From NCBI GenBank assembly GCA_963971285.1, contig OZ020260.1, positions 10,264,798-10,328,797 on the forward strand: a stretch of 64,000 nucleotides of DNA. Direction: 5' to 3'. Origin of the DNA: Astropecten irregularis (Eukaryota; Echinodermata; Asteroidea; Paxillosida; Astropectinidae). The position numbers and the translations under genes are program-made. Below are positions 28,801-56,890 of this stretch, piece by piece. Positions within the stretch are counted from its first letter, which is position 1. The number at the start of each line of letters is the position of its first letter. The notes under the pieces were generated by a model. That model worked only from the letters and a program-made list of their open reading frames with translations. It was not told where the DNA came from and ran no database searches.

Positions 28801-31800
28801 TTTGTGAAATGAACCGTCTGGGAAATTTTCTTTTCAAGGAGTTATGGGTCCAACCTCTGGGGGCAGGCTGACCAACATTTCTTGAATGACATGGACAACG
28901 CAATTAGCGTAAAATTATCAAACATTCTGGGTAAAAATCAGGTAGAAATCATTATGTAGCTATAGCTCTCAGAATATCGGGCTGAATATTTAATTGCACC
29001 GCTATAACTCAAAGGACACATAATCAACTAACGGGGAAAAGTGTATGTTTCCTTAGAAATCGTGTAGGCCATATGCGATTTAATAAAGTGACTGGTTTTT
29101 ATGACCTCTACCACAACAGGTATCTCAATGGAATGGATATTCCATGGTGGAATATGTCGCCGGTGTAAGGGAATGGATCTGCAGCGGAAACAAAACATTA
29201 TGTCTTGACTTTGCTTGACAAACGAAGAGATTTTTGAGCAATCCTTTGAAGTGATATTGTTCGTTTCAAGCACAAAAAGAGGGTCAAATGACATGACGCT
29301 ATTTCCCATACATGTTTCAATGAAGCTTCCTCCAGAAACATAATGCCGTAAATGTTCAGAATTCAGAACAATAGAATGAGAGTACGAGCGCTTAATTGGA
29401 TTTGAACATGAACTCCAATAATGCTCATGTGATTATCACCAGCTCAGTTTACCTTGTTGAGATGCCACACCACATTGAATAAGCACCTTGTGTTCTAGTA
29501 TTATTTTCGTACAATAAAATGGCACATTTTGATTCTTACAATTGATTACTGAACACTATAAATTTACTGACTAGTCAAATAGATCACCCTATAACTATGG
29601 GTGATCTATAACTTTATTGTGCACTGTTTTTACTTTATCTTCTTTGTTCTAAAATGATTCCAGTGCAACGCAGCAACTTTTTCTTATTTTGAACACAACG
29701 CAGATATGCAAATGAACGTACATAAAACGTACAAAATTGTGTGCTTCCCATAGATTTATGCCACAAACATGGATGCGCCCAGCATGCAGGCCTCACTTTG
29801 TATACGGAGCTAGCGCTCTAGTAATTTTAATATAGCTCTATGGTAATATCATACTTATCAATTACGCAGCGGCGTATCTAGGGAAAACGGCGCCCGAGGT
29901 AAGCAAAATTGCGCCCCTAATTCCAACTTATGATGCCAATGGAAAAAATCAGACAATCTTAAATTATATTTTTTTTGGTTTTGTTAATTATTTGTTTCTT
30001 AATTGGCTTTATAATCATCAACCACAAGGGAAACACTGACATAAATTAAAGTCATTGAAAATTGAACAAAGAAAAATTGACTGGAGCGGGATTCGAGCCG
30101 GATAAAAATCCGGTTATTTATTGTGGTTATTTGATGATTATATTAATTAAAAAGCCGTATCCTCTTTGAGTGATCCCCCATGTACCGTTCTTGGGTTGCA
30201 GCATTGCTGCGTGTATCGATGAAATGATCCCTGGGATATGGCGGTGTGTGCATTGTTTCATGGTTTCTGACTGCCAAACGAACAAAGATACCGGTAATTG
30301 ACTATTTGGGACACCACCAACGTAGGGCTGGATGGCTCAGTTGGCAGAGCGCCTGTACGGTATTCAGGAGGTCGCCGGTTCAAATCCCGCTCCAGTAAAT
30401 TTTTCTTTGTTCACCTTTCAACGAATTTGAAGTCATTGGAAAGTTCGAACCAGCGATTTCAAATAACTTCAAACAATACAGCTCCCTTTTTTGCCTTTGC
30501 GTTTTTTGCGCCCCCTAAAATATGGTTCCCGGGGCACGTGCCCCTATACGCCCTCTAGATACGTCACTGCAGTTAGGTGGATTAAAGCAAGTACTTACCA
30601 GGTGGAGCTGGTGGTGTCTCGACCTTTCCTGAACAATTCTTCTTTCGTATTTGTGCCATGACTTGTTCCATCCAGTAATAGGGGTTAGTGTTACCTGGAT
30701 CAGGCGGAGGTGGTGGACCGAAGTATGATCTCATCGCACCCTCAACGGGGACAGTCGTCATATTAAGGACTATTGAAATAAAGAAATGGAAGTAAAAAGC
30801 CACTTAGAACTTACAAACGAAAAGGCAATATTATTCTCATTAAAGGCAGTAATTTTTAGACTGCATTTTCCTTCTTTATAACAGGGGAGGATTCGTTTGG
30901 AACATTAGGATAATGTTTGGAACTACTTTTGATGACCAATATGCCATTCATGGTATGGCACCAGCATACATTCAGGAACTTGTCCAGCTGAAATCATCAT
31001 CACGTTTATCAAGTTTGCGAAGTTCTGAAGACCGCACATTACTAAAATACCCATCTGGGAAATCAAAGATTACACTTGGTGACAGGGCATTTGTGTTTGC
31101 TGCTCCCAAACTGTGGAATAATATTCCTGTTTTAGTTTGGCAGGCTATCTCTCTAGATTACGGAAGAGTATAAGAAAAATATTTTTCGAGTTGCTATCTC
31201 GCCGCGGCGAGTTACTATCTTGCCGCGGCGAGTTACTATCTCCCCGCGGCGAGTTACTATCTCGCCGCGGCGAGTTATTGTCCTGAGTACGATCTGCATG
31301 TATCCGGTATTGCGATGGACACGACAATGTTTGTTCCTAAAAAGGAACTTACAGCACAATCGTACATGTTTAGCCGGCCTGTGGAAAGCAAACAAAGAGA
31401 GAGAAGAGGAATAAAGAAAGAGAGACATCTCAGTTTTTGCTTATTTTGCAGCACAGAAAATTAGAATATCCGGGATGCGCTCCAAAAGTCTTAAGAAGCT
31501 TTTATCAGTGTAGTGTATAGCGAGGTCAAAAAACGTGAAGAGGCATAGTGTTTAGTTCTAACTGAAAGTGGTTTATCAGGTGGTTGGGGTAGGGGTGGGT
31601 GGGGTGGGGGTTTGTTGAGGGGGAAAGGGGCAGATGAATGAAGAAAGGGGGGAAAGAAGAAATGGATACAGGGATCGGGAAAGAAAAATTTAGGTATTGG
31701 TTAGTTTGAGGTCAAGAGGTGGAAGGTAGGCAGATGGAACAGTGGGCAAACAAAACCATCATGTGGTGGGTCCAGGCTGAGAAGGGCAAACGGAACTTGT

Positions 31801-34800
31801 GTTAATAGGAAGAGTGGAATAGTATAGGGTAATTTGACATACCACCCGTCTATATAAGAGTATAATATATTTTGCAAAGACAGAGACAAATCCAACTTGT
31901 GGGCTGTTTAGCTGTATTGCACATGGGCGGAAATCCGGGGGGGGGGGACAGGGGGGGGGGGGGCACGTCCCCCCAATGATTTTGGAGCTGGGGGACATAA
32001 TGTCGATTGTCCCCTCCATGTTTTTAACCCTTTACCATGAGCAACTTTTTCTGTGGAATGCGCACTGACCGCTTGCTCATTCCCATGGGCGAATTTTGTG
32101 AACTGTCGTGTTTGCCATGCGACTCAAATCGACGACGTGCAGTTGAGATTCCCCCTGCATGGCCGGGCCGCATGCATATACACGTAACGTTTACTGCACT
32201 GCAACCGCATACAGTCTGCATACGTATACATTTTTGTGTATAGAAATCTGGTTACGCGTCTCCCGTTCCACTTGATCCATTAAAAACCGTTTGTTTCTCT
32301 ACAGCACCATGCTCAAATCCATCGATTTTGCACTGACTCATGACGGATTTAATCTCGTTCGTCGTCGGAGTTTCGCGTAACTTCTTCACTTATTCTTCAC
32401 ATGAAACTGCGTTTTGAATGAGGTTGCTTTATTCAAACTACATTTCTGAAGAATTCTCATATCCATACAAAAAACCGCAAGGTGCCAAAGTTGGAAATTT
32501 TAAGGTATATTTATATTTATTATTTGTAATCTATCATAACGTCTGTAATGAATGTAAAGTTCTCCTGATTTTTCTGTGGAATTACAGAATTTGATTACAA
32601 TAGATTACATTATAGAAGTCTACCTATATATGCCCATAAAAAACAGTGTCTTCAATTAAAAACTGAACTGGTTCACCCAAGTATTGTTTTCAGCTGAAGC
32701 AAAACATTTGCATTTTCTTCATTCAAAATATGTTTCTCATTTTGAGGTTTACATTTTTTGCTTCACCATAGGCATATTTCTAAATTCAAATATGTGACCT
32801 CACATGATCTTTTTAAGATCAAAAATGTTTTCTGTCGTTGTTTTACTAATTTCTTGATAAAGTACACCATTTCAGGCAGGACAATTGTTATGGTATCTAC
32901 CAGCACTATCGTTATACCCTGTAAGTAACAGGTAAATCTGTGAAAATTTCTGTTTCGGTTTTTCCCTACCAAAGTATGATACTACTCCTTTAATACCTTT
33001 GAAACCCGCAACTTGCGTGTTTTCTTAAACCACCCAGATCAATAACTGAAAAATAGAGGTTTGGACAAATTAGGAATTATAGGAGTACGTAGTGGTACTA
33101 TCTTTATTTATAATCATTTATTTTATGTTCTGTTTAGTAATTATGTGCTAAATAAATGGAGGTCTGATTAAAACCTTTTAAAATCTTTCAAAATCTTTCG
33201 CAGCAAAAGTCTGAGGAAAGTGGCCTGGAATTGCCTTAGAATGCACCACACAGCATCTAGAATCAAAATTATTTCGGGGCCCTTAAGCGGGCCCCGGACC
33301 CCACGCCGTAACTTGGGCTTCAAAAAGTCATAGGTTTGCGAGTGACCAGAGCATACTAGCCGGAACATCCAGTTATCATGCTCTTTTCAGACCAAAAACG
33401 TACTCACACAAAAGTCACATGGTGTTACAAAAAAGCCTGTTATGTACTTCTACCATGCAAGTCTGATTAAAATCTTTTAAACTTTCGCTAAAAAAAGTCT
33501 GAGGAAAGTGGCCAGAAATTGCCTTAGAATGCACTACAGAGCATCTAGAATCAAAATTTTCCCCGGGCCCTTAAGCGGGCCCCGGACCCCATACCGTAAC
33601 TTTAATTCTAAAACAAATGCATAGGGTGGAAGCCAACTACACCACACTGGCAGGAACATCGAGTGAACCGCCTCTTTGCAGAGCCACCCCATACTCACAC
33701 AAGAGTGTCACATGGTGTTACCAAAAAACCTGTGCTTCTACCAAGCATAGCTTCATATCTAAGTTTTAATATATTTGAAAGTTGGAGAATACGGTACAGC
33801 ATTACGTGTACAAACATGCAAGCGAATGCTAGGCCATAGGCATGGCACTGTAAACTGAAAGTTTATACTATCTTATGAAGTGTAAATTGATGTTCCCCCC
33901 ATGATCGAGGAGGGATTTCCGCCCATGGTATTGCACAAAGATCGGTTGAACAAATCAAAATGCATGCAAGAGGGAAACCAAGAAAAGGAAGGCGAAAGTC
34001 TTTCAAAGAACACATTTTCCGTTGATAATATGCTGATCCCTAGGATTTGTCCTTTTTTATGGAGGGTTCAAAGCATATTTTCTGACCTTTATTTTGCCGC
34101 ACTTCATCAGTCACCTTTTAACATTGTTGTTGTACTTTGACCAATCATAGATGCGAGATAATGGTTGTTATTTTTTTTGTGTTTTAGTCCACATAACAAC
34201 CAATTGAAAAAACTGTCATCCTGGTTTATTTTCTAATATAAAGAAATGAAAGGATCCATGGTTCAACTTCATATTAAATCCAGGGAGGTTGGTGTACTTT
34301 ACTGTTGCTCTTGCAATACCGGTAGTTCAAGAAATTTGCAAATTATGTTCGTTGCAGAATCCCTTTCGTGTTTGCAAATGCGTTTATATCTCGCCACTTC
34401 ACCCTTGATAACGCTGCCAAATACAGATTAAGGGTGAGCAGAATCCCGACTGAGCAAGATGAAAAGTGTCAATTTTGCCGAAACCTTGGGTATCCAGCTT
34501 CCGTCCTTTACTTCCATCTTTCTTTAATAAACCCTTGTCTTCCTTTCTTCTTTTCCCCCTTTCTTCATTCATCTCCCCCTTTCCTTCTCAACAAACCAAC
34601 ACCCCACCCATCCCACGCCTACCCCAACCACCTGATAAACCACTTTTGAACTATACACTATGCCTCTTCAAGATTTTTGACCTCGCTATACACTACATTG
34701 ATAAAAGCTTCTTAAGACTTTTGGGGCGCATCCCGGATATTCGAATTTTATGTGCTGCAAATATAAGCAAAAACTGAGGTGTCTCTCTGTCTTTATTCAT

Positions 34801-36159
34801 CAAATTGTTTGTTTTATGGTCAGACCATTGGGTCTTCTCTCTCTCTGTTTTTGCTTTCCACAGGCCGGCTATACATGTACGAATTTGCTGTTCCTTTTTA
34901 CACACAAACATTGCTGTGTCAATCGCAATACCGGATACATGCAGATGGTACTCAAGACAGTAACTCGACGCGGCGAGATAATAACTCTCCACGGCGAGAT
35001 AGTAACTCGCCGCGGCGAGATAGTAACTCGCCGCGGTGAGATAGTATTTCGCTGCGGTGAGATAGCAACTCGAAAAATGTTTTTGGCAGGTGGCCTTTAT
35101 ACTCTTCCGTATAAACTCTACCATACTAGATCAATTCAAAACCAGGTTAAAGGTAGTATCATACTTTGGTTTTGGTCAAAGAAATACAGATTCATGGGCA
35201 AAAATATCAAGGAAGATACAGTAAAAGTAATCTGTGAAAGTTTCAGTCCCATACGGTGCAAATTTTTTGAGAAAACAGTGAAAAATGGCCACAGTATTTC
35301 TTAAGTCTTTTCTCTTTTATTTTTGATCTTTTAAAAGATCAAAAAGATTTTCGGTTTCTATCAGCATCATCTTCATACCCTGAAAGTTATATGTAAATCT
35401 GTGAACATTTCTGTTTTGGTCTCTTACCAAAGTATGATACTACCTTTAAAGACCCATTTATTCAATGCAAAACATTTTCTTTGTATTATTAACTCAGTAT
35501 AAAACACCAGTGAAACTTGCCCGACATTAAAATGCAGTCCAATATCTGAAATAGGACTTTGTTATTATAGGCCTATTGCATTCAAATCTGAAAACTCCGT
35601 TCAATAATTCATTACTTTGTTTTCAACTGGAGTTTTGTGATTAAAGGTAGTATCATACTTTGGTAAGACACCAAAACAGCAATGTTCACAGATTTACTTA
35701 TAATTGACAGGGTATGAAGATGGTGGTGGTAGAAACATATACCGTTAAAATCTTTCCGCCTGAAATGGTGTATTTATCCAGAAATTAGTAATACAACGAC
35801 CGAAAATCTTTTGAAAGATCAAAAATAAAAGAGAAAAGGCTTAAGAAATACTGTGGCCGTTTTTCATTGTTTTTTCAACAAGTGGGCACCGTATGGGACT
35901 GACATTTTCACAGATGACTATTACTGTATCGTTCTTGATATTTTTGCCCATGAATCTGCATTTCTTTGACAAAAACCAATGTATGATACTACCTTTAAGG
36001 TGTTTGGTACAAGGCACATTAATTTTATGTTATGTTAAAGTTGAATTTGGTTTGGACAAATTCTGAAAACTGACGCAATGTGACTCACTTACCAATAACA
36101 GTCATGACCATTGTCGTCACAGCCAAATAGTGTGGCATCTTGGCAATCCTGCAGCACAT
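10722..36159 (-). CDS. Gene A: secreted EGF/half-EGF cysteine-rich mosaic protein, 8 exons
   Basis: Eight exons join in frame: 36093-36159, 30599-30769, 17107-17190, 16027-16149, 14577-14660, 13392-13490, 11251-11428 and 10722-10851 (936 nt, 311 aa). Internal junctions are phase 1 except the last (phase 2). Order: signal peptide (1 to about 27); Pro-rich linker with FGPPPPPDPG; half-EGF (80-107, four Cys); full six-Cys EGF (108-148, CECMADFSGQHC); half-EGF (149-176); SC module (178-210); C-terminal block with VCSINADDWGVPPETC; basic tail RYYKRRWGHTDTH. No membrane segment, so secretion is likely. Half-EGF and SC exons have exact-length counterparts in gene B, so A and B are one family. Introns of up to 13 kb are filled with repeats. 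The link across the largest introns (exon 1 to 2, 2 to 3) rests on phase only, and extra exons may be missed. I do not recognise a named protein. Confidence 0.72.
11251..11428 (-). CDS. Gene A C-terminal cysteine-rich exon
   Basis: Acceptor CATCAG, donor GAAAA|GTGAGT (phase 2). Encodes VCSINADDWGVPPETCGDAV, KVNVSISVHFDIQGVHVMSC and YNASSDNWIKLGE. No family recognised. Confidence 0.75.
12037..12110. mobile_element. Start of a foldback element cut by the assembly gap
   Basis: From GTGACAGCATCAGAAA to GGGTCGGCCTCCAGGCTAG this matches 43329-43395 closely. There the ~97-bp hairpin arm begins right after GGCTAG; here the Ns begin. Confidence 0.8.
12111..12310. other. Assembly gap (200 N)
   Basis: A fixed-size run of N. 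ORFs spanning it are meaningless. Confidence 1.
12675..13042. mobile_element. TTAA-type MITE, good full-length copy
   Basis: TTAA then AGGTAGTATCATACTTTGG, and at the other end CCAATGTATGGTATTACCT then TTAA. Has the central near-palindrome CTTTTAAAAGATCAAAA. In an intron of gene A. Confidence 0.85.
13392..13490 (-). CDS. Gene A SC-module exon
   Basis: 99 nt, phase 1-1, after CATGCAG: SCQGIIDDGTFIGMQKYYIK, then PVCDPSTKPIEV. The next Cys codon is split over the intron (T|GC). Gene B has the same 99-nt module, interrupted by a transposon. Confidence 0.75.
14577..14660 (-). CDS. Gene A half-EGF exon, copy 2
   Basis: 84 nt, phase 1-1: PCNSNPCDLGASCHPGNGTG and TYYCKYYG. Its acceptor (CCAAAG) is weaker than that of copy 1 (CCACAG). 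Directly upstream of the SC exon, as in gene B. Confidence 0.75.
14916..15331. mobile_element. C-run transposon with GCAGGCGCGGTTCTA ends, 6-bp TSD
   Basis: Ends GCAGGCGCGGTTCTA and TTGAACCGCGCCTGC, flanked by AAATAC on both sides. The paralogous unit at 18306-18340 lacks the insert, which confirms the AAATAC duplication. Contains long C and A runs. Confidence 0.85.
15452..15932. mobile_element. MITE with long inverted ends, second copy
   Basis: Same family as 7999-8478: left GACACTCAAAAGTTCAG, right TTTTGAGTGTCG and TCACCAATCCCGGTCAAG. Confidence 0.75.
16027..16149 (-). CDS. Gene A full EGF-like exon
   Basis: 123 nt, phase 1-1. DPCISNPCQYGGTCRPSNGS leads to YTCECMADFSGQHC: six cysteines in EGF spacing (C-x4-C-x5-C-x11-C-x-C-x8-C). 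It lacks the usual calcium-binding D-x-D/N-E start. Confidence 0.9.
16425..16640. repeat. Cluster of AATCTTA/TAAGATT words
   Basis: Repeated ATCTTATCTCC, TTAAGATTGATCTTA and ATCAATCTTAACTTT words in both orientations. Probably a degraded inverted-repeat element; no clear ends. Confidence 0.4.
17107..17190 (-). CDS. Gene A half-EGF exon, copy 1
   Basis: 84 nt, phase 1-1: DPCNSNPCDLGASCHPGDGT and GTYYCKYYG. It has the first four EGF cysteines and then stops at a donor (TACG|GTAGTA). Nearly identical to 14577-14660 through a local tandem duplication. Confidence 0.78.
17300..18145. mobile_element. ACCGATGT/ACATCGGT-rich repeat with nested C-run element
   Basis: Ends CGATCTGACTCGCCGGAG and CTCCGGTGAGTCAGATCG are inverted. 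The interior has many CGATGT/ACATCGG words. A C-run element with CCGCGGTTCTA and AACCGCGCCTGC ends (17711-17999) is nested inside. A second family member is at 49890-50410. Confidence 0.7.
18553..18612. repeat. Short telomere-like (TTAGGG) run
   Basis: GGGTTAGGGTTAGGGTTGGG followed by degenerate copies. Too short and internal to be a telomere. Confidence 0.75.
18965..20285. mobile_element. Inverted-repeat element enclosing a second insertion
   Basis: TTGTTCCTCTCTGAGGAGCA, then TTGGGTGACCGTGTCGGGGC on the left, mirrored by GCCCCGACACGGTCACCCAA and AGAGAGGAACAAAT on the right. Confidence 0.65.
19064..19924 (+). mobile_element. Retroposon-like element with two tRNA-like segments
   Basis: Flanked by ~27-bp direct repeats starting GCGGGCCGGGGCCGGGATGG (19037 and 19925). 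Inside are two tRNA-like segments with A and B boxes: GACCGAGTGGTTCGG with GGGTTCGAGCCC near 19325-19385, and TGGCTCGGTGGGATAAGCG with GGTTCGATTCC near 19472-19535. An inverted copy is at 44505-45200. Confidence 0.6.
20290..21425. other. Intron sequence, no feature recognised
   Basis: AT-rich DNA in the largest intron of gene A. No exon-like ORF with splice borders was seen. Confidence 0.45.
21432..21800. mobile_element. Element with ATAGGTGTCGATTTC ends
   Basis: ATAGGTGTCGATTTCTTTTC on the left, CCGGGATCGACACCCATG on the right, with ATTGGGGGGATATATCCCC near the right end. A related copy is at 27640-28075. Confidence 0.55.
21825..21990. repeat. Degenerate TTTCGGGGGAA tandem repeat
   Basis: TATTTCGAAGGAATGAAA, TATTTCGGGGGAA, TTTCGAGGGAACC and TTTCGAGGAAACGAAAC follow each other. 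The minus frame reads repeated FPRN, which reflects the repeat and not a gene. Confidence 0.6.
22860..23405. mobile_element. tRNA-like element, two tandem copies
   Basis: GGAGCGGGATTCGAACCAGC near 22902 and GGAGCGGGATTCGAACCGGC near 23208 each start a minus-strand tRNA-like block. TTTCAATGA and GTGAACAAAGAAAA flanks match the family. Confidence 0.65.
24688..24985. mobile_element. MITE with TGGGCCCAATTTCAT ends, second copy
   Basis: TGGGCCCAATTTCATGGAAT at the left and ATTCCATGAAATTGGGCCC at the right, with GCTTACGGTAAGC-type words inside. Confidence 0.8.
25624..25855. mobile_element. TTAA-type MITE, partial
   Basis: TTTAAAGGTACAGTACAGG opens it and GGGTATGAAGATGGTGCTGG follows. The right end is replaced by unrelated sequence that also appears near 45222. 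Confidence 0.55.
27478..27545 (-). other. tRNA-like SINE head
   Basis: On the minus strand TTGGCGTAGCGGTTC (A box) and ACCGGGTTCAAGTCCGG (B box, T-arm) are correctly spaced. The cloverleaf is imperfect, so a SINE is likelier than a working tRNA gene. Confidence 0.5.
28085..28455. mobile_element. TTAA-type MITE, full-length
   Basis: GATTAAAGGTAATATCATAC on the left, AAAGTATGATACTACCTTTA on the right, TTAA on both sides. Confidence 0.85.
28460..29865. other. Intron DNA, no feature recognised
   Basis: No exon or repeat border was recognised. ORFs here are short and without coding character. Confidence 0.4.
29867..30570. mobile_element. GGCGTATCTAGGG-type element with nested tRNA-like element
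   Basis: Left GCGGCGTATCTAGGG and right CCTCTAGATACGTCACTGC are inverted. Inside is a tRNA-like unit at about 30327-30398 with A box TGGCTCAGTTGG (30333-30344) and B box GGTTCAAATCC (30378-30388). Confidence 0.65.
30599..30769 (-). CDS. Gene A exon 2 (proline-rich linker)
   Basis: Acceptor TTTCAATAG, donor CCTG|GTAAGT, phase 1-1. Encodes AMRSYFGPPPPPDPGNTNPY, then WMEQVMAQIRKKNCSG and PPAPPG. Strong splice signals and a clean frame support it, but no family is recognised. Confidence 0.65.
30860..31158 (+). pseudogene. CR1-type LINE C-terminus, interrupted by two later insertions
   Basis: The frame reads MAPAYIQELVQLKSSSRLSS, then GDRAFVFAAPKLWNN and AISLD, a CR1-like ORF2 C-terminus. It breaks at CTAGAT (31153-31158) and resumes at 35126 (CTAGATCAATTC, LDQFKTRL). 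It breaks again at the MITE and resumes at about 35448 as KTHLFN. The split frame dates the insertions and fixes their target sites. Confidence 0.85.
31188..31278. repeat. 21-bp tandem array with CTCGCCGCGGCGAG palindrome, left
   Basis: Four units of GAGTTACTATCTCGCCGCGG plus C. The core is a perfect 14-bp palindrome in the best units. Confidence 0.9.
31915..32030. repeat. G-run / C-run block
   Basis: GGGGGGGACAGGGGGGGGG and CACGTCCCCCC. Related to the C-run transposons at 809-1000 and 14916-15331, but without clear ends. Confidence 0.5.
32800..32998. mobile_element. TTAA-type MITE, right half
   Basis: TTTTTAAGATCAAAAATGTT to CCAAAGTATGATACTACTCC. The left half is missing. Confidence 0.65.
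33165..33760. repeat. Two ~295-bp tandem copies
   Basis: AGTCTGAGGAAAGTGGCC, GCATCTAGAATCAAAAT, GGGCCCTTAAGCGGGCCCCG and CACATGGTGTTAC occur in order in both copies. CCCTTAAG is embedded in a GC-rich palindrome. Confidence 0.85.
34961..35071. repeat. 21-bp tandem array with CTCGCCGCGGCGAG palindrome, right
   Basis: Five units in inverted orientation to the left array; the outer two units have decayed. Confidence 0.9.
35148..35451. mobile_element. TTAA-type MITE inserted in the LINE ORF
   Basis: Left CCAGG-TTAA-AGGTAGTATC, right GATACTACCT-TTAA-AGACCC. Removing the element and one TTAA restores the LINE frame (TRL-KTHLFN), so the target duplication is TTAA. Confidence 0.88.
35640..36002. mobile_element. 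TTAA-type MITE, full-length, opposite orientation
   Basis: GATTAAAGGTAGTATCATAC and ATGATACTACCTTTAAGG. Ends 90 bp downstream of exon 1 of gene A, inside its first intron. Confidence 0.85.
36093..36159 (-). CDS. Gene A exon 1 (signal peptide)
   Basis: Encodes MCCRIAKMPHYLAVTTMVMT plus VI and ends ATTG|GTAAGT. The hydrophobic run LAVTTMVMTVIVL (completed by exon 2) fits a signal peptide. The second ATG at 36138 is an equally possible start. Confidence 0.65.
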
Positions 36160-38642: not shown

Positions 38643-40568
38643 AACAAGACTGCAACTGAAAACCTACAAACATGTTTTGATATCACAGACTGGGACCTAC
38701 TAACCTCTAGTGCTTCGAGTTTAGACGAAGCGGTTGGTATCGTAAACAGTTATATTCTTTTTTGTCAAGATTTACATATCGATCAGAAGGAGATTAAAAT
38801 CTTTCCGAATCAAAAACCATGGGTAAGAAAGAATCTTAAAGATTTGTTTGGTCAGAGAAATAGGGCCTTCATAGAAAATAGAAATCAAGATCTTAAAGAC
38901 ATTAACTTGAATATACAGAAAGAAATCGGTAAAGCCAAAGACAGATATAAACATAAGCTTGAAAACAAATTCAGGTCAAAAAACACTCGTGATGCCTGGA
39001 AATGCATGCAAGAAATGACTGGATATAAACAGAAATCAAAATCTCCTGTAGTCATGAACTCGGTTTATGATAAGGCCAATGAGTACAATAGATTTTATGC
39101 AAGGTTTGATGATAAATGTTTTTACGATGAAATTAACACAACTGTGAGTGATCTGGAATGTTTGAATGATACCCCTATTGAATGCCATTTTGCAGATGTA
39201 TGTAAATATTTTACCCGCATTAATCCTAGAAAATCCATGGGACCTGACAGTATCTGCGGGAAAGTGCTGAAAACATGTGCATGGCAACTAGCCGTTCCAT
39301 TTACGAGACTGTTTCAAGAGTCACTGAATCAAAACTGTGTTCCTAAATGCTGGAAAACCTCCACGGTCATCCCAGCAGCGAAGACACCCAGAGCCTCTGA
39401 GCTCAATGATTATCGGCCCATATCCCTCACTTCTCTAGTTATGAAAACATTTGAACGATTGATTCTCCAGAAGCACTTACTCCCACAAATACTGCCACTC
39501 ATAGACTCACATCAATTTGCCTACCAACCAAAGAAGTCTGTTAATGATGCCATCTTACTCTTAGTTCACACAATTGCCCAACATGTTGACAAGCTCGGTC
39601 ATTATGTTCGCACTACTTTTGTTGATTTCTCATCAGCCTTTAATACAATTCAACCCCACTTATTGATGGAAAAACTTAGTAAGATGAATGTCAAACCTTC
39701 ACTAATATTGTGGATGCATGCCTTCTTGACCGACCGAATTCAAAGGGTTCAATTACATAATGTGCTATCTGACTTTGTAACAACCAACACTGGGTCTCCA
39801 CAGGGGTGTGTGCTTTCTGCACCATTATTCATTCTTTATACTAATGATTGTATTTCATCTTCTGATAATGTATCTATTGTAAAATATGCCGATGACACGG
39901 CTATTATTGGTTTGATTTCAAGAAACAATGAACACAATTATCGCCACGAATTGCATGTTTTTGAAAAATGGTGTGATGAAAACTTCCTAGCCTTGAATAC
40001 AACTAAAACTAAAGAGATGATTACTGATTTCCGTTCGCATAAAGATAATCCTACAAATCCTGTAACAATGAAGGGCAATAATATAGAAATTGTGGACAGT
40101 TTTAAGTACTTGGGAACCATTATCGACAATAAATTATCATGGATCGACCAATGTCAGGCTGTTTATGCGAAAGCACAACAGCGTATGTACTTTTTGAGAA
40201 AGATGTATTCGTTCCACGTAGACAAGACTATCCTTAGGTTATTTTATAAATCAGTAATCGAAAGCGTCATTCTGTTCAGTTGTGTAGTCTGGTCTGGTGC
40301 CTGCAGGAAGGTAGATCTGGATAAACTGAATAGAATCCCCAGACATGCGCAGAAAATGATAGGTGAAAAGTCAAACCTAAATGAGGCATACACACTTCTG
40401 ATCCTGAAACAGGCGGAAGCCATATGGAAAAATCCCAATCACCCTCTCCATTCTTACTATACAATGATGCGATCAGGAAAACGCTTTCGTTCCATTCGAG
40501 CTCGTACAGGTCGTTTTGGGAATACTTTCATTCCACTCTCAATCCGGGAAACAAATAAACTGAAGTAA
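38643..40568 (+). CDS. LINE (CR1/L2-like) ORF2 with reverse transcriptase, 5'-truncated
   Basis: Open frame of about 640 codons from a stop at about 38640 to TAA at 40566-40568. It has RT motifs in order: DYRPISLTS, FVDFSSAFNTI (catalytic Asp), TGSPQGCVLSAPLFILYTND, KYADDTAII (the Y-A-D-D box) and KYLGTIID. The C-terminal part has HPLHSYYTMMRSGKRFRSIR and RTGRFGNTF, typical of CR1/L2-group elements. No endonuclease domain precedes it. The 3' end carries a (GAAT)n tail near 40776-40806, as in such elements. The frame is intact, so insertion is fairly recent. Catalytic residues are present, but a 5'-truncated copy should not be mobile on its own. Confidence 0.92.
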   Translation, partial: NKTATENLQTCFDITDWDLLTSSASSLDEAVGIVNSYILFCQDLHIDQKEIKIFPNQKPWVRKNLKDLFGQRNRAFIENRNQDLKDINLNIQKEIGKAKDRYKHKLENKFRSKNTRDAWKCMQEMTGYKQKSKSPVVMNSVYDKANEYNRFYARFDDKCFYDEINTTVSDLECLNDTPIECHFADVCKYFTRINPRKSMGPDSICGKVLKTCAWQLAVPFTRLFQESLNQNCVPKCWKTSTVIPAAKTPRASELNDYRPISLTSLVMKTFERLILQKHLLPQILPLIDSHQFAYQPKKSVNDAILLLVHTIAQHVDKLGHYVRTTFVDFSSAFNTIQPHLLMEKLSKMNVKPSLILWMHAFLTDRIQRVQLHNVLSDFVTTNTGSPQGCVLSAPLFILYTNDCISSSDNVSIVKYADDTAIIGLISRNNEHNYRHELHVFEKWCDENFLALNTTKTKEMITDFRSHKDNPTNPVTMKGNNIEIVDSFKYLGTIIDNKLSWIDQCQAVYAKAQQRMYFLRKMYSFHVDKTILRLFYKSVIESVILFSCVVWSGACRKVDLDKLNRIPRHAQKMIGEKSNLNEAYTLLILKQAEAIWKNPNHPLHSYYTMMRSGKRFRSIRARTGRFGNTFIPLSIRETNKLK

Positions 40569-46900: not shown

Positions 46901-49900
46901 ACGACTGTCGTATACATCACAAAATGTGCGCAGATATTTGTGATGTGCGATGTCCCTCCTGCGCCACCATTCTAAAGGTGCTTTATAAATACCAATGATT
47001 ATTATTAATTATTGGTTTGTTGGAATTGCTGTCTGCGAGTATATTTCTTTCAATTCCATTGATAAAATTCAAATACTTGTATTCTATTTTTTGACGATCA
47101 ATCCCAGCCAAAATGAGTGTTGTACGTACAGGCATTGACACGATTACCAGAGGGATTGCATATTGGGTTCATGTAGTAAGTACCATCGCCTACAGAAGTC
47201 TATGGCGTGCAAAGTTAACATTTAATCGGGAATAGAGATATCTCTATTAACAATAGAGATATCTCTATTAACAATAGAGATATCTCTATTACAAGACGTG
47301 CCAAGTTAACATTTAATCCCGAAATAGAGATATCTCTATTAATAATAGAGATATCTCTATTATTAATAGAGATATCTCTATTAGTAATAGATATATCTCT
47401 ATTTCTAATAGAGATATCTCTATTATTAATAGAGATATCTCTATTAACAATAGAGATATCTCTATTATTAATAGAGATATCTCTATTGCGAAATAGAGAT
47501 ATCTCTATTACTAATAGAGATATCTCTATTTCTAATAGAGATATCTCTATTAATAATAGAGATATCTCTATTGTTAATAGAGATATCTCTATTTCGCAAT
47601 AGAGATATCTCTATTGCACAATAGAGATATCTCTATTTCGCAATAGAGATATCTCTATTATAATCAGCTTTCGACGTCAGCAGGTCGCCCTCTACGTTTT
47701 GTTTTGTTTAAATTTCTATCATCTTGAGGGGTTTCAAGTCGCGTCTTAATACTGTACTCCCGCAGTTGTTTACGCTGGGAAGTTTATGTATCTTTTTATG
47801 GTACCAGTCTGTCGAGATGTCGCCTAATCTGGCGAATTTCGCTATGTATGCGACGTTCCAAAACGGTCCTTAATCCAGCCATTATAAATTAATTGAAAGT
47901 GCCTGGGCATAATACATGTAATAACGAACATAATAAAATGACTTGATGCATGATGGGATATGATGCGCGTGCCCCCTGGCTCACTGAAACTTTGTGCGTG
48001 ACGTTACAACGACCACTCCGACCGGAAACATTAATAGAGATATCTCTATTAAAACCGGAAGTACACAATAGAGATATCTCTATTGTTAATAGAGATATCT
48101 CTATTGTTAATAGAGATATCTCTATTACTAATAGAGATATCTCTATTGCTAATAGAGATATCTCTATTCTTAATAGAGATATCTCTATTCTTAATAGAGA
48201 TATCTCTATTTCTAATAGAGATATCTCTATTCTTAATAGAGATATCTCTATTCTTAATAGAGATATCTCTATTGTTAATAGAGATATCTCTATTCCCGAT
48301 TAAATGTTAACTTTGCACGCCATAGAAGTCCCAGCATCGATGGTCGCACGGCATGACTCTGCATGATTAAAACAAATAAAGTATGAACGTGATGATGGAC
48401 AAAAGTAGGACTAATAACAGCGTATTAAAGGTAATATCATACTTTGGTTTTTGTCAAAGAAATACAGATTCATGGGCAAAAATATCAAGGAAGATACAGT
48501 CAAAGTAATCTGTGAAAACTTCAGTCCCATACGGTGCAAACATTTTAAGAAAACAGTGAAAAACGGCCAAAGTATTTCTTAAAGGGACCACGATACAGGA
48601 TTTAAATTGCATTATTCCTGCTTAAAACAATAAAGTACTATATATCTACAATGATATTTTGTGTCTCGAGCTAATTATTTGCTGGATTAAATATGAGAAA
48701 AAAAATGTTGAAAATGTTTGTCCAAGCTACTACGCCCCTTGAGTGGGACCCTCATTAACATAAATCTTCCCGAATGTGTGACGTAAATCGAGGAAGCTGC
48801 AGCCGCGCGCACGCGAGCCGGCGCCCCATTCACCGGCCGGTCACATTGTGTACATGCATGTCCTCGAAGCCTAAAATCGTTCATCAAAAATACTTTTCGA
48901 GAAAAAAGGCTTCAAAGATTTTACACACACCGCGTGTCGTAGTGCTGACTGACAGTTTTACGTTGGTCTGTGTGCGAGACGGATCACAATAGCAGCTTGC
49001 CGGGGGTCTGTGACCGCTCCGTGGACCGTGCAAGTTAAGATGTTTTCTAGACCTTCGATAAATTTCCGTTCCTCGATCTGCGTCACGAACAGCGCCCTCA
49101 ATTTGAGTCGCGGCAAATTCCCAAAAGGGGGAGGCAATTTTTGGGCGGCAAAAAATCATATGAAAAGTTTACTTGCACCAGTTTGGCTTTTAATTCACAT
49201 TTAATAAATGTAAATGAATTTATTTATGAAATAAAATGCGATACGCCCAGTTCACGCAGCTTGTTTCCTTTAAGTCTTTTCTCTTTTATTTTTGATCTTT
49301 AAACAGATCAACAAGATTTTCGATCGTTGTTTTATTAATTTCTGGATAAATACACCATTTCAGGCGGAAATATTTTAACGGTAGGTTTCTACCAGCATCA
49401 TCTTCATACCCTGAAAGTTATATGTAAATCTGTGAACATTTCTGTTTTGGTCTCTTACCAAAGTATGATTCAACCTTTAAAAGGCTTTTTCACACTGTAA
49501 GCTTTCAACCCGGGACGAACTACGAACTCCATTCCCGCCCTGGGTTGAAATTTGAATTTTCAACCCCGCGTTCAACCCAGCGTCGTTTCACACTTGCCTC
49601 TCACGAACCCACCTTCAACCTGGGGCGAACTCAACCCGATTCAATTCACACAGCCCTTTTCAACCCGCCCGGGGCGAAGGTTTCAACCCGGGGCGAAAAT
49701 CTCAACCCTGGTCCTGAGCAGGGTTGACTTCAACCCGTGTTGAAATCAATCTCGGGGTTGACGCGTGGTTCAACAATTTCTAGTGTGAATAGCCGCCGAT
49801 TTCAACCCCGCGTCAATCCCGAGATTTGTCCAGTGTGAAATGCAAACTGTATTTCCTTCACGATACTTTGGATATATCCACTGTAAAGGCCTTGTCACAC

Positions 49901-54545: not shown

Positions 54546-55920
54546 AAATTATTATTGGCTTTTCCGCATAGTTGCGGAAAAGCTATACTGTTTGTTAAGA
54601 TTTTTTTTCTTTCTTCTTCTTCCTTTTTTTCCCAGGGCCCATAGACTTTGCACACGTTTTATTCTCCAGGACTTTTTTGCCATTAAACTTTATTTCACAT
54701 AGTTCAAAGTTTGTATAGGCATAGTACATACAGCATAGATGTGCCCGCGTGAATTACGTCATGATGACGTCATCAGGTGTCATGTGATAAGGTATTCAAA
54801 TTTAATAATAAAAATCTTTAAAAATCAACAAAAAATCAACCGTTTGAGATATTAAGTTCATTCTTTCGCCAAATATCAATGTTAGGCTCGGTCTTTCTTT
54901 CTGACACATTGCTTGACCTATGTGACCTCTACTTCCGGTCAAACAGGAAGTAGCTCCCCATTTAAAAGTGGTAAGAGCTAGGATCATGATTCTTTCACCA
55001 AATATCAATGTTAGGCTAGGTCTTTCTTTCTGACACATTGTCTGACCTCTGTGACCTCTACTTCCGGTCAAACAGGAAGTAGCTCCTCATTTAAAAGTGG
55101 TAAGAGCTAGGATCATGATTCTTTCACCAAATGCCAATGTTAGGCAAGGTCTTTCTTTATGACACATTGTTTGACCTCTGTGACCTCTACTTCCGGCCAA
55201 ACAGGAAGTAGCTCCTCATTCAAAAGTGGTAAGAGCTAGGATCATGATTCTTTCACCAAATGTCAATGTTAGGCAAGGTCTTTCTTTATGACACATTGTT
55301 TGACCTCTGTGACCTCTACTTCCGGCCAAACAGGAAGTAGCTCCTCATTCAAAAGTGGTAAGAGCTAGGATCATGATTCTTTCACCAAATATCAATGTTA
55401 GGCAAGGTCTTTTTTCGTGACACATTGTTTGACCTCTGTGACCTCTACTTCCGGTCAAACAGGAAGTAGCTTCTCATTTAAAAGTGGTAAGAGCTAGGAT
55501 CATGATTCTTTCACCAAATATCAATGTTAGGCAAGGTCTTATCTTTGTGATATATTGATTGACCTCTGTGACCTCTACTTCCGGTCAAACAGGAAGTAGC
55601 TTCTCATTTAAAAGTGGTAAGAGCTAGGATCATGATTCTTTCACCAAATATCAATGTTAGGCAAGGTCTTATCTTTGTGATATATTGATTGACCTCTGTG
55701 ACCTCTACTTCCGGTCAAACAGGAAGTAGCTCCTCATTTAAAAGTGGTAAGAGCTAGGATCATGATTCTTTCACCAAATATCAATGTTAGGCAAGGTCTT
55801 TCTTTGTGACACATACATATATGTAGATCTAATGTTGCATGGATTCATAAATTGATTTTTAAAACATGGAGCGGAAAAGCTCTATGCTCTGTTGCAGACA
55901 GACATAGAATCTCTAGTTAT
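54546..55920. mobile_element. Element with 129-bp central tandem repeats, copy 1
   Basis: Starts near TTGGCTTTTCCGCATAG, an inverted hairpin with TTGCGGAAAAGC. Ends near GAGCGGAAAAGCTCTATGC and GAATCTCTAG before (TTA)n. A CTAG end before T suggests Helitron/Helentron type (inference). Part of a 2.7-kb block missing from the gene C copy. Confidence 0.6.
54857..55815. repeat. 129-130-bp minisatellite, about 7.4 units
   Basis: The word GGATCATGAT recurs at 54981, 55110, 55239, 55368, 55497, 55627 and 55757. Each unit has the near-palindrome CTTCCGGTCAAACAGGAAG. Confidence 0.95.
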
Positions 55921-56245: not shown

Positions 56246-56890
56246 AGCTTTTCCGCATAGTTTTTTTCCCACGGCCCATAGACTTTGCACACGTTTTATT
56301 CTCTGCGCCACTTTTGTCATTTAACTTTGTTAGACATAGTTCAAAGTTTGTATAGGCATAGTACATACAGCATAGATGTGCCCGCGTGAATTGCGTCATG
56401 ATGACGTCATCAGGTGTCATGTGACAACATATTTGAATTTAATAATAAAAATCTTTAAAAATCAACAAAAAAACAACCGTTTCAGATATTAAGTTCATTC
56501 TTTCACCAAATATCAATGTTAGGCTAGGTCTTTCTTTGTGACACATTGCTTGACCTCTGTGACCTCTACTTCCGGTCAAACAGGAAGTAGCTTCTCATTT
56601 AAAAGTGGTAAGAGCTAGGATCATGATTCTTTCACCAAATATCAATGTAAGGCTAGGTCTTTCTTTGTGAAACATTGTTTGACCTCTGTGACCTCTACTT
56701 CCGGTCAAACAGGAAGTAGCTCCTCATTTAAAAGTGGTAAGAGCTAGGATCATGATTCTTTCACCAAATATCAATGTTAGGCAAGGTCTTTTTTCGTGAC
56801 ACATTGTTTGACCTCTGTGACCTCTACTCTCCGGTCAAACAGGAAGTAGCTTCTCATTTAAAAGTGGTAAGAGCTAGGATCATGATTCCA
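56246..56890. mobile_element. Element with 129-bp tandem repeats, copy 2 (3' truncated)
   Basis: TTAGCTTTTCCGCATAG and CCCATAGACTTTGCACACG as in copy 1, then about 3 units (GGATCATGAT at 56618, 56747 and 56877). Confidence 0.75.

Follow-up and report, generated by a model that had tools for sequence, protein, structure and literature searches.

Palindrome arrays at both ends of a recently mobile, probably IS3EU-type transposon in the sea star Astropecten irregularis

The stretch of the Astropecten irregularis genome analyzed here (64,000 nucleotides of contig OZ020260.1, hereafter "the window") carries, at positions 47201 to 48324, a 1,124-bp element with GAAGTC on either flank and two arrays of an 18-bp palindrome, AATAGAGATATCTCTATT. 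A first-pass annotation of this DNA had reported 31 copies of the palindrome in arrays of 19 and 12 units together with the GAAGTC duplication, and a recount confirmed all of these, 30 of the 31 matches in the window being exact. Among 100 shuffled controls, the palindrome was found in the window 0.07 times on average and once at most, and when the window was cut into 5.2-kb tiles (positions 1 to 62400), the tile with the element held 31 related 16-bp palindromes and each of the 11 others no more than 2. The terminal repeats, previously given as perfect over 69 bp, are perfect, but the terminal inverted repeat (TIR) measures 71 bp, with mismatches first at position 72 and next at position 92; unique sequence makes up its outer 30 bp only (TATGGCGTGCAAAGTTAACATTTAATCGGG), and the remainder consists of palindrome units. 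The spacers have the 3 to 4 bases described before, except at two places, where they have 32 and 16 bases. The unit equals its reverse complement and carries no orientation, so that the inverted order attributed to the two arrays is readable from their spacers and ends only. The open reading frames (ORFs) that overlie the element in the window are readings of the palindrome array. The features of the element and of its insertion site are listed in Table 1.

Table 1. Features of the palindrome-array element and its insertion site, in window coordinates
Feature	Position	Strand	Remarks
Exon-like reading frame, 42 residues plus stop, split by the element	47098..48358	-	Coordinates by eye
Target-site duplication GAAGTC, left copy	47195..47200	.	
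TIR, unique part, left end, TATGGCGTGCAAAGTTAACATTTAATCGGG	47201..47230	+	0/1,140 bases differ (38 ends, 19 copies)
Palindrome units (3), AAC spacers	47231..47290	.	First two inside the 71-bp perfect inverted repeat
Degenerate inner second copy of the terminal sequence, at the boundary of units 3 and 4 of the left array	47291..47322	+	Present too in the right end of the 13.8-kb element
Palindrome units (16), pitch 21 or 22 bp	47323..47659	.	One unit G>T at position 7
Internal part 1, 155 bp	47660..47814	+	99.4% to L073:6201-6355, adjoining the right array of the 13.8-kb element
Deletion junction, 4-bp overlap of internal parts 1 and 2	within 47811..47814		
Internal part 2, 222 bp	47811..48032	+	100% to L072:935-1156, adjoining the left array of the 13.8-kb element
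Lone palindrome unit	48033..48050	.	Followed by 16-bp spacer AAAACCGGAAGTACAC (48051-48066)
Palindrome units (11), pitch 21 bp	48067..48294	.	
TIR, unique part, right end, CCCGATTAAATGTTAACTTTGCACGCCATA	48295..48324	-	
Target-site duplication GAAGTC, right copy	48325..48330	.	

Removal of the insert and one GAAGTC in silico leaves an open stretch on the minus strand, the last 42 residues of which follow a splice-acceptor-like sequence, TTTTAATCATGCAG (recognized by eye). A genome search with these 42 residues gave 15 matches, one of which is the window itself; the other 14 show 38 to 56% identity and all cross the junction free of stops and without an insert. The earlier suggestion that the insertion lies in a coding exon thus holds as far as tested, and a Pfam search with the interrupted frame named no family. 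The view that the window element is a real mobile element sitting in an exon-like frame is supported.

The 475.7-Mb genome was searched for the family to which the element belongs (the A family). The exact 18-mer occurs 843 times and its reversed control not at all; the TATGGCG-type terminus, with up to 3 mismatches allowed, gave 99 matches, 58 of them exact, against 0 for the reversed control. Forty genome regions were fetched (L-numbers denote the regions analyzed), and together with the window they cover 742 of the 843 cores (712 in the regions and 30 in the window). Every one of the 712 exact cores in the fetched regions lies within 1 kb of a TATGGCG-type terminus, and the possibility, raised with the first description, that the 18-mer is a plain satellite without shared ends was rejected on this count. 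Thirty elements, one of which has two candidate right ends, provided 31 end pairings; 21 of these have a perfect 6-bp target duplication, 1 has a duplication with one mismatch, and 9 have two or more mismatches, compared with agreement of the 6-bp flanks in 2 of 930 cases when ends were paired across elements. The shared ends near the cores and the 6-bp duplications mark the A family, by the evidence of its sequences, as a cut-and-paste transposon family and not a satellite. Array length differs among the copies. In 15 of the 19 short copies that were compared, the interior measures 371 to 373 bp, which points to one deletion that probably spread later. At L065:601-1643, the spacer block TCGC-GCAC-TCGC is found also inverted, as GCGA-GTGC-GCGA, in the same array, which suggests that template switching may occur at the palindromes.

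The autonomous relative with a transposase and a TATGGCG terminus, which the first-pass annotation had proposed to look for, was found as a 13.8-kb element. Ends 13.8 kb apart are present at two places in the genome, designated the C18 and C15 copies. The C18 copy (C18:19818021-19831855; L072/L073), in which both ends are present and the 6-bp duplication, CAAATT, is perfect, was taken as the parent. The 373-bp interior of the window element consists of 222 bp (100% identity) and 155 bp (99.4%) from the two subterminal regions of this parent, with a 4-bp overlap, which identifies the window element, as judged from the alignment, as a recent internal-deletion derivative of the 13.8-kb transposon. 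It is similar to a miniature inverted-repeat transposable element in that its interior derives from the parent and the genes of the parent are gone. The C15 copy (L070/L071) is 99.5% and 99.8% identical to the two halves of the C18 copy (approximately 6.9 kb each). It was not taken as the parent and is, on the available sequence, rearranged, because there are two candidates for its right end, neither with a matching duplication, and because 600 bp of its outer flank share 98% identity with the flanking DNA of L050. The two right ends stand in tandem at L071:6420-7292, and the outer of them seems to stem from a short derivative. In a third copy (C1:12179892-12203890), the ends are approximately 24 kb apart, with CAAAAT on both sides. 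The 72% protein identity of one of its pieces had suggested a diverged autonomous lineage, and this candidate was dropped after DNA comparison; outside the arrays, its left end is 99.3 to 99.6% and its right end 98.6 to 99.2% identical to the C18 copy, and it is therefore a third copy of the same element and no evidence of core conservation across divergence.

The parent encodes a DDE integrase-core transposase, assigned to Pfam family rva_4, over three exon-like ORFs, with E values of 4.6e-7 (L072), 7.9e-44 (the C15 copy, L070), and 2.1e-18 (both copies). Splice signals join the first two of these ORFs in frame, and D, D, and E residues are common to the A family and to a related family, T, with a gap of 34 residues (A) or 36 residues (T) between the last two (signals and residues identified by eye). 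A search of Protein Data Bank (PDB) sequences with the A-family core returned a chance-level match only (E value, 0.47), and a search for a tRNA-derived SINE motif gave no match.

The IS3EU elements bearing TET genes in fungi have 6-bp duplications, TIRs of more than 30 bp, and TAYGG..CCRTA ends (PMC12730594), and IS3EU elements are outlined elsewhere as having TA..TA termini and usually 6-bp duplications (PMC10045372). The A family has 6-bp duplications, TATGGCG..CGCCATA ends, a 71-bp TIR, and an autonomous partner with a DDE integrase-like transposase. Its ends, its duplication length, and its transposase type place it with the IS3EU superfamily, as far as sequence features can, and point away from the undescribed kind of mobile element that had been proposed. 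The link between rva_4 and IS3EU is one that we infer, and Pfam does not name rva_4 IS3EU. Two oyster satellites, of 690 and 129 bp, are listed as IS3EU-like (PMC8268682), and a repeat of Tribolium is similar to IS3EU-1_TC in one of its halves (PMC5844308). A literature search, with Repbase and subscription papers outside its range, produced no report of palindrome arrays, subterminal repeats, or a HECT gene in IS3EU elements, and the term "palindrom" was always used in another sense in the available text of the IS3EU literature found.

Within the window arrays, units differ from one another by 0.0036 per site in the cores and by 0.54 per site in the 3-base spacers (0.41 after correction for orientation). 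Active homogenisation was among the explanations first offered for this pattern, and a process of gene conversion or hairpin repair that keeps the cores identical in place would account for 30 identical cores out of 31. However, the spacers adjoining the cores are not homogenised, and their order, which homogenisation would erase, is common to the copies (mean longest common subsequence of 0.86 in 17 copies versus 0.44, and at most 0.73, after shuffling). In addition, older copies are not clean, with 14 of 40 units exact in L060 and 1 of 26 in L043, and changes that date from after the amplification are as frequent in the cores (17 of 10,944 bases in 19 young copies) as in the interior (7 of 5,593 in 15 copies); the unique part of the TIR has not changed (Table 1). 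Ongoing homogenisation is scarcely credible on these grounds. The equal rates indicate that the cores have not been specially protected since the copies spread, and the cleanliness of the cores within a single copy is, on these counts, mostly a matter of youth. The contrast between cores and spacers within the window arrays is, by the same comparison, older than the spread of the copies, and it needs explaining.

The similar rates in cores and interior are also what would be expected if the arrays were neutral, satellite-like expansions, in which the unit was spread by tandem duplication and its identity reflects youth only. The variation in array length agrees with such a process, as does L043, an old copy at L043:601-1700 that has C at core position 9 in 16 of its 26 units (counted by eye), so that this variant itself seems to have multiplied. 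Against neutral expansion, the window spacers differ more than 100 times as much per site as the cores, also when corrected for orientation; the spacer order common to the copies indicates that the units had time to diverge; and palindrome arrays stand beside the ends in other families with unrelated units, as described below. Neutral expansion is thus left with a slim chance, and selection on copies that were still moving fits the core identity best.

A genome search with the transposase exon gave 34 matches, and the upstream DNA was read for 11 of these, comprising the family's own copies and four relatives. In the T family, the transposase exon of which is 46% identical to that of the A family, two copies start with TATGGGGCGCC exactly at the start of the alignment, and a different palindrome, CATGGTTTATAAACCATG, is repeated at the left end of each copy and, in the one copy read on that side, at the right end as well; the duplications are TGGTAT and GTCATG. 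A resolvase-type helix-turn-helix domain (HTH_7; E value, 3.2e-7) lies in an ORF upstream of the catalytic-core ORF, with which it would form one protein, and a search of PDB sequences with the T-family ORF found one weak integrase match (6qbv; E value, 0.007). The G family (39% identity) has TACGGTGGCTG ends and arrays of TAGGGCGTTATAACGCCCTA at both ends; the duplication is GCATTG in an 11.4-kb copy, and four short copies have GTATAA, GTGACA, GAAGTT, and GATCTC/GATCCC, respectively. In the H family (37%), of which one end was read, two copies begin aligning at TATGAAGCCC and contain a 21-bp repeat, with 26 units in L079. The E family has 147 terminus matches genome-wide, TACGGAAGAG ends, and units of CTCGCCGCGGCGAG at both ends, mostly at a 21-bp pitch, with duplications in all three copies read (TTAACG, CTTTTG, and GTCCCA). 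Altogether, three of the five other families have clear arrays of unrelated palindromes at both ends, one has a near-palindromic array at the end that was read, and one has no array that was found. TAYGG ends, 6-bp duplications, and other palindromes are combined in three families, two of which (T and G) are tied to rva_4 transposases. The pitch is 21 bp in 460 of the 520 A-family steps of 19 to 22 bp (18 copies), in 16 of 19 E-family steps, and in 24 of 24 H-family steps.

The window itself contains the ends of an older element of the IS3EU-like E family at 31159 to 35111, with TACGGAAGAG at 31159 and the complementary sequence up to 35111. The 21-bp arrays around CTCGCCGCGGCGAG are found at 31187 to 31277 and 34955 to 35072, the arms are 88 to 90% identical, and there is no matching target duplication.

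Taken with the anatomy of the A family, these sister families lead us to the interpretation, to which we give a probability of roughly two in three, that the window element is a recently mobile, non-autonomous derivative of an IS3EU-type transposon and that its palindromes are putative binding sites, probably for the transposase. Binding by a protein had been among the first suggestions; it is the best remaining idea and is strengthened by the different palindromes of the sister families, the binding itself being inferred. In the mechanism that we propose, the transposase of the parent would move the short element in trans and cut at TATGG/CCATA, leaving 6-bp duplications. Each 18-bp palindrome would be a candidate site for one protein dimer, and a pitch of 21 bp, or approximately two turns of DNA, would place the dimers on one face of the DNA. 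The arrays may load both ends for pairing or synapsis, after which cleavage would take place. The binding protein is most likely the transposase itself, acting through an N-terminal helix-turn-helix, and the different palindromes of the sister families would be matched by different recognition domains. The identity of the cores would in this case be a legacy of earlier selection on mobile copies and not a product of homogenisation still acting on every site.

Alternatively, the palindromes may be sites for a host protein, such as a transcription factor or a chromatin protein acting in expression, nuclear positioning, or escape from silencing, with the transposase using the outer terminal repeat only. 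Two 80-bp copies (L057:601-680 and L062:601-680), which consist of two ends and a single palindrome unit and have the perfect duplications CAAAAT and CGTGGG, seem to have moved and thus agree with this possibility, and transposons that spread host-factor sites are known, for example, EnSpmN6_DR with p53 sites in zebrafish (PMC3485254). However, several host factors would be required by three more families with unrelated palindromes in the same genome, and in four families the arrays adjoin the termini at both ends and not just a promoter. We regard the host-protein explanation as unlikely. The palindromes might instead act as DNA structures, namely, hairpins or cruciforms, in excision, replication, or repair. 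Perfect inverted repeats make up nearly all A-family units of the young copies and many of the units in the T, G, and E families, and the inverted spacer block of L065 is as expected from template switching at palindromes. Self-complementarity alone would permit compensated drift, whereas the A-family unit stays one sequence while its spacers vary, and a purely structural role has a small chance.

Several observations weigh against the transposase-binding interpretation that we prefer. Since amplification, the cores are no cleaner than other internal DNA. No duplication was found in the 9 end pairings of 31 with two or more mismatches, and the 80-bp copies suggest that an element can do without a long array, unless these copies shrank after insertion. 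The helix-turn-helix-like exon of the A family has no Pfam match. Among the relatives, the 21-bp unit of the H family is only imperfectly palindromic, steps are mostly 37 to 41 bp in the T family (also 14, 32, and 51 to 52 bp) and 20 to 23 bp in the G family, and L077 (50% identity) is without an array within 5 kb, its ends not having been located.

A second gene accompanies the transposase. In the C18 parent, a HECT-like ORF (L072:6896-7579 plus L073:3-434; Pfam E value of 1.6e-8, for the L072 part only) lies opposite to the transposase. This gene has 24 matches in the genome, 19 of which are within 15 kb of a transposase match (at 2.5 to 7.9 kb), and all 19 are downstream of and convergent to the transposase, compared with approximately 0.05 expected by chance. 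Why a transposon should carry a ubiquitin-ligase-like protein is a question that this gene raises. In the fungal TET-bearing IS3EU elements, the transposase is likewise paired with an opposed gene, which encodes an alpha-kinase (PMC12730594).

More broadly, and more tentatively, with odds that we would put somewhat short of even, animal IS3EU transposons in general may have subterminal arrays of family-specific palindromes of 14 to 20 bp, often at a two-turn pitch and each read by a dimer of its own transposase, with a convergent HECT-like gene as a standard component. The families would then form a natural series of matched pairs of enzyme and binding site. If the palindromes bind their own transposases, at least three such pairs (A, T, and G) would be present in one genome, and E would be a likely fourth; the unrelated sites and the recently mobile copies would allow the study of how recognition changes under a constant mechanism. 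IS3EU is a poorly characterized superfamily of animals and fungi, for which cis-acting sites beyond the terminal repeats are unreported in the accounts found, as far as their available text goes, and routine annotation pipelines may call such arrays scattered satellite.

Two other features of the window were observed. An open frame of 641 residues at 38643 to 40568 contains a reverse transcriptase domain (RVT_1; E value, 2.1e-30), and a 129-bp tandem repeat is present at 54860 to 55814 (7.4 copies) and 56497 to 56888 (3.0 copies).

Among known systems, CACTA (En/Spm) transposons are similar in having subterminal repeats, which are bound by a small protein of the element. They have 3-bp duplications and CACTA ends, whereas the window element has a 6-bp duplication and TATGG ends, and the CACTA repeats are not 18-bp perfect palindromes and belong with an unrelated transposase. 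Foldback or TU-type elements, such as Tetris and the sea urchin TU elements, have long inverted arms of short tandem repeats and are tied to other transposases and duplication lengths; the window element differs from them in having a defined IS3EU-type parent. Kolobok, Sola, and piggyBac elements use TTAA or another 4-bp target and were excluded by the 6-bp duplications of varied sequence. Polinton/Maverick elements encode a protein-primed DNA polymerase and capsid proteins and have 6-bp duplications; their genes were not seen in the scan of the parent, which covered 9 + 9 of its ORFs, whole or in pieces (shorter ORFs in part), and the reading of the 13.8-kb copy as a Polinton or other large virus-like element was rejected. 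Helitrons and their non-autonomous relatives (HINE) have neither target duplications nor classical TIRs, whereas the window element has both. DINE-1 and the oyster Helentrons, which are Helitron related, share with it short tandem arrays in a dispersed non-autonomous element (PMC4067079 and PMC7492417). The closest likeness is to IS3EU, in the 6-bp duplications, the TAYGG..CCRTA ends, the TIRs of more than 30 bp, the integrase-core DDE transposase, and the opposed second gene. The difference is in the family-specific palindrome arrays beside both ends and in the HECT-like gene, which are absent from the published accounts found, within their available text.
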